Source: Glycocaulis albus (GTDB lineage: Bacteria; Pseudomonadota; Alphaproteobacteria; Caulobacterales; Maricaulaceae). From it: 64,000 nt of DNA. The stretch lies in assembly GCF_014639075.1 (NCBI RefSeq), contig NZ_BMFS01000002.1, positions 186,001 to 250,000 on the forward strand. The letters are read 5' to 3'. Both the position numbers and the translations under genes were made by a program. Below are positions 5,783 through 30,852 of this stretch, in pieces (within the stretch, counting starts at the first letter, position 1; each line of letters begins with the position of its first letter). The notes under the pieces were generated by a model that saw only the letters and a list, made by a program, of their open reading frames with translations, was not told the origin of the DNA and did not search any database.

Positions 5783-5811
5783 TTGACGCAATAGCGGAAC
5801 AGGCGTAGAAC
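5783..5811 (+). promoter_or_regulatory. Putative lexA promoter
   Basis: TTGACG (5783-5788) and TAGAAC (5806-5811) are separated by 17 bases, about 55 bases before the lexA ATG. The -10 element overlaps the LexA box at 5797-5811, which fits autorepression. Confidence 0.55.
5797..5811 (-). promoter_or_regulatory. LexA (SOS) box, direct-repeat type
   Basis: GAACAGGCGTAGAAC reads GTTC-N7-GTTC on the minus strand. This is the direct-repeat LexA site established for alphaproteobacteria, unlike the inverted repeat of E. coli. It overlaps the putative -10 of lexA. Confidence 0.8.
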
Positions 5812-5864: not shown

Positions 5865-6536
5865 ATGCTGACCCGCAAACAACACGAGCTTTTACTCTTC
5901 ATCCACAAGCGCCTGTCCGAGGATGGCGTGTCTCCGTCCTTCGACGAGATGAAGGAAGCGCTTCAGCTCGCCTCGAAGTCCGGCGTGCACCGTCTGGTCA
6001 GTGCGCTGGAGGAGCGCGGCTTTATCAGGCGTCTGGCGCACCGCGCCCGCGCACTCGAAGTGCTCAAGCTGCCGGACGCCTCTGCACCCCGTGCCAGTTC
6101 CGCAGACAATGTGGTCAGCGGCAATTTCGCACGCCGCGAGGTCGAAACGGATTCGGTCGATGTGCCGCTGCTGGGCAAGATTGCAGCCGGTGTTCCGATC
6201 GAGGCGATTCAGCACGAGACCGAGCGCTTCGGCGTGCCCTCGCAGATGGTCTCCTCCGGCGAGCATTTCGCGCTGGAGGTCGAGGGTGATTCCATGATCG
6301 AAGCCGGCATTCTCGATGGCGATTATGTGATCATCCGCCGTGGCGATACGGCCAATAACGGCGAAATTGTTGTGGCGCTGGTCGATAATGAGGAAGCCAC
6401 GCTCAAGCGCATCCGCCGCAAGGGCGGATCGATTGCTCTGGAGGCCGCCAACCCGGCCTATGAGACCCGCATTTTCGGACCGGACCGCGTTCAGGTGCAG
6501 GGCCGCCTGGTAGGACTGATCCGCCGTTATCACTGA
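5865..6536 (+). CDS. lexA: LexA repressor, SOS regulator
   Basis: This 223-residue transcriptional repressor of the SOS regulon has an N-terminal winged helix (about 1-68) and a C-terminal peptidase S24 domain. The autocleavage site is Ala108-Gly109 in KIAAGVPI; the catalytic serine is Ser143 in EGDSMIEAG and the lysine is Lys181 in EATLKRI. The ATG at 5865 is chosen because translation from it starts with MLTRKQ, the usual LexA N-terminus; an in-frame TTG at 5832 is too far upstream and inside the regulatory region. It has its own promoter with LexA boxes, so it is autoregulated. Confidence 0.97.
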
Positions 6537-26395: not shown

Positions 26396-29300
26396 TCAGA
26401 CGGCCAGGGCCTCGACCGCGCTGACGCCCGGCACTTCTTTCAGCGCGCTGCGCAAGGCCGGATCAAGCCGGTATCCGCCGGGCAGGCGCACCCGGGCGCG
26501 CGAACGCCCCTCGACCGGCAGGTCGAGCACAACGACGCCGCGCGCTTCCCCCCCCGATGAGCCCAGGCGTGACAGCCGGGCATGAATGCCGTCGAGCGCC
26601 TGCACATCGTCCACTTCCACACACAGGCCAGGCAATTGCGCCTCGCGCAGCAGCCCCTCCAGCGGTTCACAGCCATCCATGATGAGCCGGATCTGCTCGT
26701 CCTGGTCTTCAACCCTGAACGTGGCCAGAATGCCCTGCCCCGCCTCCAGAAGATCCCGGACCTCACTGAACACCCTTGGCGGCACCAGCGCCTCGAACTC
26801 GCCGCTGGGATCAGACAGGGTAAGGAAAGCGAAACGCTCGTTTGACCGGCGCGATATCTTTTCCTGGCGGCGGCGGACAATGCCCGCCATGCGCACCGCC
26901 TTCACCGCGCCCTCCTGCACACGCTGAACCAGCTCCGACCAGCCCACTGCGCCGCGCCGCGCCAGCACCTCGCTGAAGGCATCAAGCGGGTGACCGGACA
27001 GATAGAAGCCGATAGCGGCCAGTTCCTCGTCCAGCCGGCGCGACGGCTCCCAGGGCTCGGCCGCCGGCAGAGGCGGCCGCTCGAGTGCCACCGGGTCATT
27101 GCCGCCGGCACCGAAAAGCGAGACCTGGGCGGAATCCCGCTCGGCCTGCGCGGCCTGCGCTATTGCGCATAATGTTTCGGCGGCCGCCATTACCCGCGCC
27201 CGGTCAGGCTCCACACTGTCAAATGCACCGGCCCGTGCCAGCGTCTCCAGCAGGCGCTTGTTGACATTGCGCGCATCCACGCGGGCGGCAAAGTCATAGA
27301 GATCAGCAAACGGGCCGCTATCGCGGCGCGCGCGCACCACCTCTTCCATGGCGCCCATGCCCGCACTGCGCACCGCGCCCAGCCCGTAGCGTACCGCGCC
27401 ATCTTCCACCGAAAAGTCAGCAAGGGAGCGATTGATATCCGGGCCCAGCACGGTCACGCCCATATGGCGGCATTCCTGGAAGAACACCGCCAGCTTGTCG
27501 GTATTGGCCGCATCAAGGCTCATCAGCGCGGCCATGAAAGCCACCGGGTGATGAGCCTTGAGCCAGGCCGTGCGGTAGGCGATGAGTGCATAGGCGGCTG
27601 CGTGCGACTTGTTGAAGCCGTAGCCGGCAAACTCCGCGACGAGATCAAAGATGTAGGACGCCTTCTGCTCGCCAACCCCGCGTTCGGCGGCACCCTTGAG
27701 GAAGCGCTCGCGCTGCTTGTCCATCTCCTCCTTTTTCTTCTTGCCCATGGCCCGGCGCAAGAGATCAGCTTCGCCGAGCGAGTAGCCGGACAGGATCTGG
27801 GCGATCTGCATCACCTGTTCCTGATAGATGATGACCCCGTGGGTCTCCTTCAGGACCGGCTCCAGATCGGGGTGGAGATAATCAGGCTCTGACCGGCCGA
27901 ACTTGCGTTCGACATAAATGTCGATGTTCTTCATCGGACCGGGCCGGTAGAGCGAGATCAGCGCGATAATGTCTTCAAATGTGTCCGGCTTCACCTTTTT
28001 GAGCGTGTCGCGCATGCCAGAGCTTTCCAGCTGGAACACGCCGATCGTGCTGCCCGCCGCCATCAGCGCATAGGCCTTGGGGTCATCGAGAGGCACCGCA
28101 TCAAGATCGATATCTTCGCCAGTGGAGGCCTTGATGTATGCCACCGCACGCGCCATCACGGTCAGGGTTTTCAGGCCCAGAAAGTCGAATTTGACGAGGC
28201 CCGCCGGCTCCACCCATTTCATGTTGAACTGGGTCGCGGGGATATCCGAGCGGGGGTCGCGATAGAGCGGCACGAACTCGGTCAGCGGCCGGTCACCGAT
28301 GACGATGCCCGCTGCGTGCGTGGACGCGTTCCGGTAAAGCCCTTCCAGCTGCAAGGCCACCGTCATCAGACGGTCAACGGCGGCATCTTCCCGGCGCATC
28401 ACCTGCAGTTTCGGTTCGCTCTCCACAGCCTCCGCCAGCGTCACCGGCTGGGCGGGATTGTTGGGCACGAGCTTGGCGATCCGGTCCACCACCGGGAAGG
28501 GTATCTGCAATACGCGGCCGACATCGCGCACGACAGCGCGGGCCTGCAGCGTGCCGAACGTGATGATCTGGGCCACCCGGTCAGAGCCATAGCGCTCCTG
28601 CACATAGCGGATGACCTCACCGCGGCGCTCCTGACAGAAATCGATATCGAAGTCCGGCATGGAGACGCGTTCGGGGTTGAGGAAACGCTCGAAAAGCAGC
28701 CCGAAACGCAGCGGATCAAGATCGGTAATGGTCAGCGCCCACGCCACCACCGAACCGGCGCCCGAGCCCCGGCCCGGACCCACCGGAATACCTTGCGCCT
28801 TGGACCACTGGATGAAGTCGGCGACGATCAGGAAATAGCCGGGAAACCCCATCCGCTCGATGACACCCAGCTCGAAGGCCAGCCGGTCCTCATATTCCTT
28901 CACCGATGCAGCCGGCTCCACGGCGGCAAGACGCGCCTTGAGCCCTTCCTGCGCCCGCCCAGCCAGCTCCTCGGCCTCGGTGCGCCCTTCAAGCCTCGGA
29001 AAACGCGGCAGGACCGGATCACCGGTCCGCGGACGGTAAGCGCAGCGCCGGGCGATATCGACGGTGTTGCTGATGGCTTCCGGCAGGTCGGCAAACACCG
29101 CCGCCATTTCCTCGCCGCTCTTGAAATAATGCTCCGGCGTGACCTTGCGCCGGTCATCGACAATCACGTAGGTCGATTGCGCGATGCACATCAGCGCATC
29201 GTGCGCTTCATGGCGCTCCGCTGTCGCGAAGTACGGCTCATTGGTCGCCACCAGCGGCAGATTGCGCGCATAGGCCTGCGGAACCAGCCAGTCCTCCGCT

Positions 29301-29860
29301 GTCACATCATCAGGCCGCCCATGGCGCTGTAATTCAATGTAGAGCCTGCCCGCGAACGCCTCGCACAACCGCTCCAGAACGGTCTCTGCCCTGGGCGCCT
29401 TTCCACCTGCGACAAGCCGGTTGAGCACCCCGTCATATCCGCCCGTAAGGCAGATCAGGCCTTCACTTTGTTCCAGTATCGAACTGAGTGGCACTGAAGG
29501 CTCATCGGCCGGTCCGACATCGAGATAGGCCGAGGACGACAGCGAAACGAGATTGCGGTAGCCAGCCTCGTTCTGGACGAGCAGAACCAGGGTGCCAGTG
29601 GGGACAATTCTTTCCCCGGGCCGCTCCGATTCCAGCTTCACAGACAATGTGCACCCGATGATCGGCTGCACGCCTGCGCCGGACAGGTACTCGGAAAATT
29701 CCAAGGCGCCGAACAGGTTATTGCTGTCGGTCAGCGCCAGGGCCGGCATGCTCATCTCGCCGCAGAGCTTTGCCAGCTCGGGTATCCGGGTCGCACCCTC
29801 CAGCAATGAGTAGGGCGACCGGCTTCGCAGATGAACAAATCCGTCCGGGTTCACGGTCAT
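26396..29860 (-). CDS. dnaE: DNA polymerase III subunit alpha
   Basis: This 1154-residue replicative polymerase has an N-terminal PHP domain (about 1-280, starting FVHLRSRSPYSLLEGATRI), the C-family polymerase core with the catalytic aspartates in MPDFDIDFCQERR near residue 400 and RAMGKKKKEEMDKQRERF, a helix-hairpin-helix region, and a C-terminal OB fold. Length is normal for the main DnaE, not the shorter mutagenic DnaE2/ImuC. It may be co-transcribed with the SOS-box-controlled small gene just upstream (29937-30029). Confidence 0.97.
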   Translation of the reverse strand: MTVNPDGFVHLRSRSPYSLLEGATRIPELAKLCGEMSMPALALTDSNNLFGALEFSEYLSGAGVQPIIGCTLSVKLESERPGERIVPTGTLVLLVQNEAGYRNLVSLSSSAYLDVGPADEPSVPLSSILEQSEGLICLTGGYDGVLNRLVAGGKAPRAETVLERLCEAFAGRLYIELQRHGRPDDVTAEDWLVPQAYARNLPLVATNEPYFATAERHEAHDALMCIAQSTYVIVDDRRKVTPEHYFKSGEEMAAVFADLPEAISNTVDIARRCAYRPRTGDPVLPRFPRLEGRTEAEELAGRAQEGLKARLAAVEPAASVKEYEDRLAFELGVIERMGFPGYFLIVADFIQWSKAQGIPVGPGRGSGAGSVVAWALTITDLDPLRFGLLFERFLNPERVSMPDFDIDFCQERRGEVIRYVQERYGSDRVAQIITFGTLQARAVVRDVGRVLQIPFPVVDRIAKLVPNNPAQPVTLAEAVESEPKLQVMRREDAAVDRLMTVALQLEGLYRNASTHAAGIVIGDRPLTEFVPLYRDPRSDIPATQFNMKWVEPAGLVKFDFLGLKTLTVMARAVAYIKASTGEDIDLDAVPLDDPKAYALMAAGSTIGVFQLESSGMRDTLKKVKPDTFEDIIALISLYRPGPMKNIDIYVERKFGRSEPDYLHPDLEPVLKETHGVIIYQEQVMQIAQILSGYSLGEADLLRRAMGKKKKEEMDKQRERFLKGAAERGVGEQKASYIFDLVAEFAGYGFNKSHAAAYALIAYRTAWLKAHHPVAFMAALMSLDAANTDKLAVFFQECRHMGVTVLGPDINRSLADFSVEDGAVRYGLGAVRSAGMGAMEEVVRARRDSGPFADLYDFAARVDARNVNKRLLETLARAGAFDSVEPDRARVMAAAETLCAIAQAAQAERDSAQVSLFGAGGNDPVALERPPLPAAEPWEPSRRLDEELAAIGFYLSGHPLDAFSEVLARRGAVGWSELVQRVQEGAVKAVRMAGIVRRRQEKISRRSNERFAFLTLSDPSGEFEALVPPRVFSEVRDLLEAGQGILATFRVEDQDEQIRLIMDGCEPLEGLLREAQLPGLCVEVDDVQALDGIHARLSRLGSSGGEARGVVVLDLPVEGRSRARVRLPGGYRLDPALRSALKEVPGVSAVEALAV

Positions 29861-29936: not shown

Positions 29937-30029
29937 CTAGCCGACGAGCGCGGTGCTCCATGTCAGCACAACGGCCACGAACCCTAGCGTAACAAAGGCG
30001 GTGCTGGCCTCTTCGATCAAGCGCTTCAT
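29937..30029 (-). CDS. Small single-pass membrane peptide, SidA-like candidate SOS division inhibitor
   Basis: A 30-codon frame on the minus strand starts at ATG 30029 and stops with TAG at 29937. The peptide begins MKRLIEEAST, followed by a continuous hydrophobic segment (about residues 11-28, including FVTLGFVAVVLTW) with no charge, so it should be a single transmembrane helix with a basic N-terminus. An AGGAG ribosome binding site is seven bases before the ATG, and a promoter with two LexA-like boxes lies upstream. In Caulobacter crescentus SidA is a 29-residue inner membrane protein induced by SOS that blocks division through FtsW/FtsN. Size, topology and control match; I cannot align the sequences, so orthology is inferred. 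Downstream dnaE is on the same strand. Confidence 0.65.
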   Translation of the reverse strand: MKRLIEEASTAFVTLGFVAVVLTWSTALVG

Positions 30030-30056
30030 GTGAGAACTCCTGTTGATATCGATGAT

Positions 30057-30071
30057 ATTCGCTGTTTGTTC
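30057..30071 (+). promoter_or_regulatory. LexA-like box 1 upstream of the small membrane peptide gene
   Basis: ATTCGCTGTTTGTTC fits the direct-repeat LexA site with one mismatch in the first half (ATTC-N7-GTTC). It would lie just downstream of the putative -10, around the transcription start. Confidence 0.55.
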
Positions 30072-30076
30072 CACTT

Positions 30077-30105
30077 GAAATATTCGCCTTATGTTCCGCC
30101 GTCAA
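30077..30105 (-). promoter_or_regulatory. Putative promoter of the small membrane peptide gene
   Basis: On the minus strand TTGACG (30105-30100) and TATTTC (30082-30077) are 17 bases apart. LexA-like box 2 fills most of the spacer and box 1 lies just downstream, so bound LexA would block RNA polymerase. Confidence 0.5.
30082..30096 (+). promoter_or_regulatory. LexA-like box 2 upstream of the small membrane peptide gene
   Basis: ATTCGCCTTATGTTC is a second ATTC-N7-GTTC site, 25 bases from the first. Both share the wider context ATATTCGC-N5-TGTTCC, so the pair is a repeated sequence and not a chance half-site. Confidence 0.55.
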
Positions 30106-30171: not shown

Positions 30172-30852
30172 TCAGGCTGCGACGACGCGGCCATTCTCCA
30201 GCGTGACGACCCTGTCCATCCGCCCGGCGAGCGCGAGATTGTGGGTCGCCACCAGAGCCGCCGCGCCCGCCTCACGGCACGCCGCCGCCAGCGCATCAAA
30301 CACCTGATCGGATGTGGCCGGATCGAGATTGCCGGTCGGTTCATCGGCCAGCACCACGCGCGGCTCGCCCACCAGTGCACGCGCGATGGCGACGCGCTGC
30401 TGCTCCCCGCCGGAAAGCTGGGCCGGCAAGTGCGTCAGGCGCCCGCCTAGCCCCAGCCTTGTCAGCCAGTCATGCGCTTTCGCACGGGCCTTCGCCTTGC
30501 TCTCGCCTGCGATCAGGCGCGGCAGGGCAACATTATCCAACGCATCAAGTTCGGGAAGCAAATGATGGAATTGATAGACAAATCCAATTTCCCGGCGGCG
30601 CAGCGCCGTGCGCCCGCGCTCATTCAGTGCAAGCCCGTCAATCCCACCCACATGCACCGAACCGGCATTGGGCTTTTCCAGCAGCGCGGCAGCATGGAGA
30701 AGCGAGGACTTGCCCGATCCCGACGGGCCAACAAGACCCACCAGCTCACCGGGCATCAGATCGAGATCAGCCCCGCTGAGCACCTCAATCAGCTCGGCAT
30801 CGGTCTGGTACTGGCGCACCAGGCCGCGAATGGAAACGGCCGGATCACTCAT
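30172..30852 (-). CDS. lolD: Lipoprotein-releasing ABC transporter ATP-binding protein
   Basis: This 226-residue ATPase powers extraction of outer-membrane lipoproteins from the inner membrane. It shows Walker [10 protein letters not shown], the LolD-typical signature [15 protein letters not shown] and Walker [13 protein letters not shown]. It overlaps the permease gene by eight bases. Confidence 0.95.

Follow-up and report, generated by a model that had tools for sequence, protein, structure and literature searches.

A probable divergent orthologue of the division-inhibitor gene sidA, with LexA-like boxes, lies directly upstream of dnaE in Glycocaulis albus

The cell division inhibitor SidA of Caulobacter crescentus is described as a 29-amino-acid protein of the inner membrane whose partners are FtsW and, by two-hybrid analysis, FtsN (PMC4211646). 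The same source reports that its overproduction is suppressed by the FtsW substitutions F145L and A246T, which were read as favouring the active state, that changes at F145 and A246 best suppress both SidA and DidA in C. crescentus, and that the binding of SidA to FtsW is unaffected by A246T (PMC4211646). Deletion of sidA is reported to abolish the filamentation of lexA mutants (PMC12700426). DidA, also from C. crescentus, resembles SidA as a small single-helix inhibitor of the FtsW/I/N complex, but has 71 amino acids, is induced by DriD without LexA and binds FtsN (PMC4211646). The Gram-positive proteins YneA, SosA and ChiZ are likewise small membrane proteins that inhibit division and are induced by SOS or damage, and YneA also acts on FtsW; in a 2026 study, however, SidA was placed by modelling, though not with high confidence, on the other side of FtsW TM7 (PMC13396833). 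For SidA itself a curated NCBI model, NF033228, already exists. TisB and DinQ of Escherichia coli are also SOS-induced single-helix peptides, but they act on the membrane (its potential) and are under antisense RNA control. Our literature search returned no report of SidA outside Caulobacter, and the founding paper (Modell 2011) may mention homologues.

In the present study we examined a 64,000-nucleotide stretch of the G. albus genome (the window), in which a first-pass annotation had proposed, without alignment, a SidA-like gene consisting of a 30-codon ORF preceded by AGGAG and encoding a single membrane helix. These features were borne out. The ORF lies on the minus strand at 29937..30029 (ATG at 30029, stop at 29937; 30 codons plus stop) and encodes the 30-residue peptide MKRLIEEASTAFVTLGFVAVVLTWSTALVG; the Shine-Dalgarno sequence AGGAG is found at 30037..30041 (minus strand), 7 nt from the ATG. 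The 19-residue mean Kyte-Doolittle hydropathy reaches a maximum of 2.06 at residues 11-29, which indicates one probable membrane helix, with no charged residue beyond E7, and in size and topology the peptide agrees with SidA (about 29 amino acids, one membrane helix). Pfam and NCBIfam scans of the window peptide returned no family, the latter including no score with NF033228. A 45-codon version beginning at an upstream GTG was also considered and rejected, as it lacks a Shine-Dalgarno sequence and its GTG is GGA in a close relative (L010).

Comparison with congeners indicates that the ORF is conserved as coding sequence. Base differences at codon positions 1, 2 and 3 between the window ORF and two congeners (L010 and L011) were 1, 0, 3 and 0, 1, 7 respectively, so that changes fall mostly at third positions, which argues that the amino acids, and not translation alone, are conserved. 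Identity to the window in these two congeners was 0.96 and 0.86 in the promoter and 0.96 and 0.91 in the ORF, and dropped at the stop codon to 0.64 in both for the stretch between the stop and dnaE. A third congener (L012) is farther off, with ORF differences of 9, 5 and 16 and a peptide identity of 60%.

The two LexA-like direct repeats that had been noted in the promoter were confirmed, each being one base off the perfect GAACN7GAAC motif. Box 1, GAACATAAGGCGAAT (30082..30096, minus strand), lies in the spacer between a probable -35 element, TTGACG (30100..30105, minus strand), and a probable -10 element, TATTTC (30077..30082, minus strand), which follows TTGACG after 17 nt and matches the consensus weakly; box 2, GAACAAACAGCGAAT (30057..30071, minus strand), is directly downstream of the probable -10, and the two boxes are 25 bp apart. 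A generic promoter scan at the sidA-like gene found no site. In the window as a whole GAACN7GAAY occurs six times against 2.36 expected, a number reached by one of 100 shuffles, and two of the six sites are the sidA-like boxes while one lies 5' of lexA. The layout recurs in the own family (f1) of G. albus, where a box with at most one mismatch was found within 110 bp before the ORF in 37/37 loci (a perfect box in 27/37) and TTGAC followed by a LexA box within the next 22 nt in 33/37. The two one-mismatch boxes and this family-wide layout agree, at the sequence level, with the LexA-controlled promoter of SidA, and LexA binding and RecA-dependent induction by DNA damage are candidate features of the promoter.

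The presumed repressor is encoded in the window itself, by a lexA gene on the plus strand at 5865..6536 (start read off the DNA) whose product matches TIGR00498 with 183.8 bits, above the cut-off, and which is shortly preceded by a perfect LexA box, GAACAGGCGTAGAAC (5797..5811, plus strand). In the same genome the perfect motif (GTTCN7GTTC) also stands 5' of recA, uvrA, a yifB/comM-like gene and an imuA-like gene, the last scoring 36 bits, below the cut-off of its model. These assignments come from 20 regions chosen by eye from the 51 matches to the motif, with nine neighbouring proteins from eight regions scanned; in the remaining regions of the 20 no SOS gene was noted and the motif was often within an ORF. 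Genome-wide, the 51 matches are barely more than the 44 in the control, so that context matters for the argument for LexA control. About 24 kb separate the window's lexA and its perfect box from the sidA-like gene, and the gene numbers in C. crescentus are also close (lexA = CC1902, dnaE = CC1926; PMC1839093).

The sidA-like ORF is flanked downstream by dnaE, encoding the alpha subunit of DNA polymerase III (26396..29860, minus strand), which begins 76 bp beyond its stop codon, and upstream by a lolD-type ABC ATPase gene (30172..30852, minus strand; Pfam ABC_tran, the lolD name not being assigned by a tool). A scan of the window for terminator-like sites gave none in the gap before dnaE, so transcripts started at the SOS promoter may extend into dnaE, and such read-through could explain the fixed synteny. 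Among 60 own-family genomes the peptide was matched in 55 at E<=0.1 and in 51 at E<=1e-3, five giving no match. In keeping with the initial proposal, ORF and ribosome-binding site are conserved in relatives, the ORF adjoining dnaE in 37/37 own-family loci examined, with an SD-like stretch in 36/37; lolD was recognized in 28/37. When the single window peptide was searched against 200 genomes of the order, 43 gave a match at E<=10. Thirty loci were kept, and DnaE adjoined the match in 22 of them, all from the own family; the others, with no DnaE beside them, were judged to be chance matches. Peptide and box were also present in named records of Oceanicaulis sp. (L071) and Maricaulis sp. (L072).

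Placement beside dnaE proved to be a property of SidA in Caulobacteraceae as well, a criterion that was found here and that we have not seen published. NF033228 (cell division inhibitor SidA) matches 44/60 Caulobacteraceae genomes, 37 of them over the cut-off, and among 14 control genomes it matched Caulobacter vibrioides alone; within the genomes searched here, recognition by the curated model was limited to Caulobacteraceae. In 44/44 SidA genomes the match is on the dnaE strand and ends 34-284 bp before the DnaE match; this count excludes a second copy in G017, there being 45 matches in the 44 genomes. A box followed by a helix ORF of 28-31 amino acids stands at the corresponding spot in 26/30 Caulobacteraceae loci, the four without both together being L046, L056, L060 and L063. 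The peptide of one of these genomes, G161, scores 72.3 bits with NF033228 (cut-off 35). The family label Caulobacteraceae rests on the NF033228 matches and on the DnaE of G161, which is 93% to that of an uncultured Caulobacter sp., the nearest named among the matches listed; a scan of named genomes with a Caulobacter-like DnaE gave no C. crescentus record among the at least 80 loci listed. Separately, the Caulobacteraceae genome G017 carries a second SidA-like ORF of 37 codons (L247; G017:C3:313500-316700), which is not near dnaE and has no LexA box. A phage collection queried with a Caulobacteraceae SidA gave no match.

Alignment with Caulobacter SidA had been suggested as a check in the first-pass annotation, and it held for the families but not for the single peptide, which misses NF033228 and has 17-28% pairwise identity to the Caulobacteraceae rows. 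When a profile of 11 own-family peptides, including the two from the Oceanicaulis and Maricaulis records, was compared with a profile of 18 peptides from Caulobacteraceae, the score was 30.8, collinear from Met1; none of 400 column shuffles (200 plain and 200 keeping the N-terminal and helix blocks separate) reached this score, the largest being 20.1. The SidA side of this alignment consists of Caulobacteraceae peptides, those scored matching the SidA model, and not of the C. crescentus sequence itself. The Caulobacteraceae genome G007 encodes an intermediate peptide with 23.5 bits against NF033228, below the cut-off. Like SidA of C. crescentus (NF033228; about 29 amino acids), the own-family peptides have one helix, a basic N-terminus followed by an acidic residue, an [AGS]-F core in the helix, LexA boxes and a place directly 5' of dnaE; they differ in a tryptophan near position 24 (10/11 own-family rows) and in lacking a cysteine that most Caulobacteraceae rows have after the core. 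Judged from family profiles, synteny and control layout, which support the SidA-like identity first offered without alignment, the window ORF is a divergent sidA orthologue outside the curated model, divergent because the families match by profile although the window peptide does not match NF033228.

We also examined how far the arrangement extends within the order and the class. Within the order, family f4 has peptide and box beside dnaE in 4/6 loci read, and family f5, for which the DnaE place was obtained from 13/15 genomes, has a more diverged peptide, often with RDxxGLxVLL, in 13/13 regions (L407-L419), with a perfect box in 11/13; 11/13 lie above the best antisense score of the class-wide set and 2/13 below it. 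In family f2 (15 genomes searched), by contrast, the peptide was found in 0/14 regions and a perfect LexA box in 1/14 (L393-L406), which represents either loss or replacement of the peptide. In the named records of Hyphomonas and Ponticaulis (L081, L090), the stretches read (524 and 900 bp) contained no box and no helix ORF. For the class, the DnaE place was located in 139/144 genomes (140 places), and the set taken comprised 129 upstream regions, each at most 900 bp long and three of them much shorter (L301, L349, L368); it does not include the Caulobacteraceae locus L054, a second G345 place, or nine places that belong to genomes of <=1.6 Mb.

A perfect LexA box occurs in 24/129 of these dnaE-upstream regions, whereas 20 shuffled sets average 2.5. 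In 17/129 the perfect box is followed by a helix ORF of 25-50 amino acids, an arrangement seen in 1/129 antisense and, on average, 0.05 times (at most once) in shuffles; the other seven of the 24 have no helix ORF after the box by the same criteria. Allowing boxes with at most one mismatch and adding a Shine-Dalgarno sequence gave 18 regions, the window's own among them, and 0 antisense. As an independent test, the peptides of all 17 box-plus-helix regions were aligned from rule-chosen starts; against the SidA profile they scored 29.7, where no shuffle of 200 exceeded 14.2, and against the own-family profile 32.6, where no shuffle of 200 exceeded 16.0. A hand-picked set of 15 peptides, which omits L351 and near-copies, gave 26.4 and 35.8 respectively, above all 200 shuffles in each case, so that the 17-region rerun is higher with the SidA profile and lower with the own-family profile. 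With a joint profile, 18/129 regions from 14 families including f1 exceed the best antisense score, a count that is not independent because 17/18 are training peptides or near-copies, and the remaining 111/129 show no such peptide over that score.

A profile search across the class matched 26/385 at E<=0.1, and 21 of these matches lay beyond the order. Four of these 21 loci (L206, L207, L212 and L214) are genuine by place and box; the other 17 are not. Families f8, f14 and f95 of the 17-region set also turned up in this search. Taken together, a SidA-type micropeptide appears to adjoin dnaE in four families of the order and in at least 14 beyond it (13, one of them weak, plus f174), and SidA looks, from these comparisons, like an old and widespread but patchy alphaproteobacterial gene. 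Tepidicaulis marinus (L070) has a 46-codon version, and in L253, L257 and L070 an N-terminal extension of about 15 residues precedes the helix (46-47 amino acids), a possible cytoplasmic addition. We would go further only tentatively, with a proposal that is somewhat doubtful as it stands: that much of the Alphaproteobacteria inherited SidA from a common ancestor, and that the gene became fixed 5' of dnaE, was repeatedly lost, as in f2, and has been overlooked elsewhere, the linkage lasting because a single SOS promoter would halt division and lift the supply of replicative polymerase.

Given this relationship to SidA, we consider it very likely that the window ORF is a divergent sidA orthologue encoding a LexA-repressed, damage-induced inner-membrane peptide that holds back FtsW/FtsI/FtsN. 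Support from the DNA covers the gene, its coding conservation, its family's homology with SidA, the layout of operator and promoter, the presence of lexA and of its motif, and an FtsW orthologue; membrane insertion, FtsW binding and division arrest are attributed to the window peptide by analogy. LexA bound to the two boxes, one within the promoter and the other directly downstream, would keep the gene off until DNA damage, through RecA, triggered LexA self-cleavage and the promoter opened. The 30-residue peptide would then be made and inserted into the inner membrane, its basic N-terminus probably cytoplasmic, and, by analogy with SidA, may keep the FtsW/FtsI/FtsN complex inactive and so delay septation until repair. 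An FtsW orthologue is present in the same genome, and F145 and A246 are conserved in 9/9 aligned FtsW proteins, its own included (numbering transferred from the FtsW of G161, where residues 31, 145 and 246 fit). This conservation says little about the binding site, since it possibly reflects a need of FtsW itself and A246T leaves SidA binding intact. At position 31, a site changed in another suppressor, the organism's own FtsW has T and not A.

The fixed position could also mean that the ORF is an SOS leader peptide, or the mere 5' end of an SOS-inducible dnaE transcript, with DNA polymerase III alpha being raised and the peptide incidental. The place directly 5' of dnaE in every own-family locus (37/37) and every SidA genome (44/44) is as this would predict, and read-through is possible across the 76 bp gap, which lacks a terminator-like site; yet it is the amino acid sequence that is conserved, with mostly third-position changes, conservation falls at the stop codon, and the family is homologous by profile to SidA, a known effector. 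We regard this explanation as unlikely.

Two further explanations concern the peptide itself. An SOS peptide of the TisB/DinQ type, perturbing the membrane itself and not FtsW, would share the size class, single helix and SOS control (for DinQ, PMC3567139), but the family matches SidA by profile and the helix has no charged residue after E7, and we consider this highly improbable. Still less probable is convergence, in which a membrane peptide unrelated to SidA arrived at the same size, control and place: the low identity to Caulobacteraceae rows and the missing NF033228 match are what this would give, but it is opposed by the failure of any of the 400 shuffles to reach the profile score, by the intermediate sequence in G007, and by a promoter layout and synteny held in common.

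A gene of the SidA type is easily missed at 26-47 codons, and the start of sidA in the C. crescentus annotation was itself corrected by ribosome profiling (PMC4117421), which fits the ease with which such genes are misannotated. A LexA box, a short helix ORF and then dnaE provide a rule by which further members could be sought. The classical SOS division inhibitor, SulA, is reported not to be widely conserved outside the gamma-proteobacteria (PMC4211646), and other bacterial groups use unrelated SOS division inhibitors. If the SidA-type peptides beside dnaE are real across families, the alphaproteobacterial checkpoint would have one old core part, and the natural variation among these peptides could be used to map how FtsW is stopped by a helix of 30 residues.
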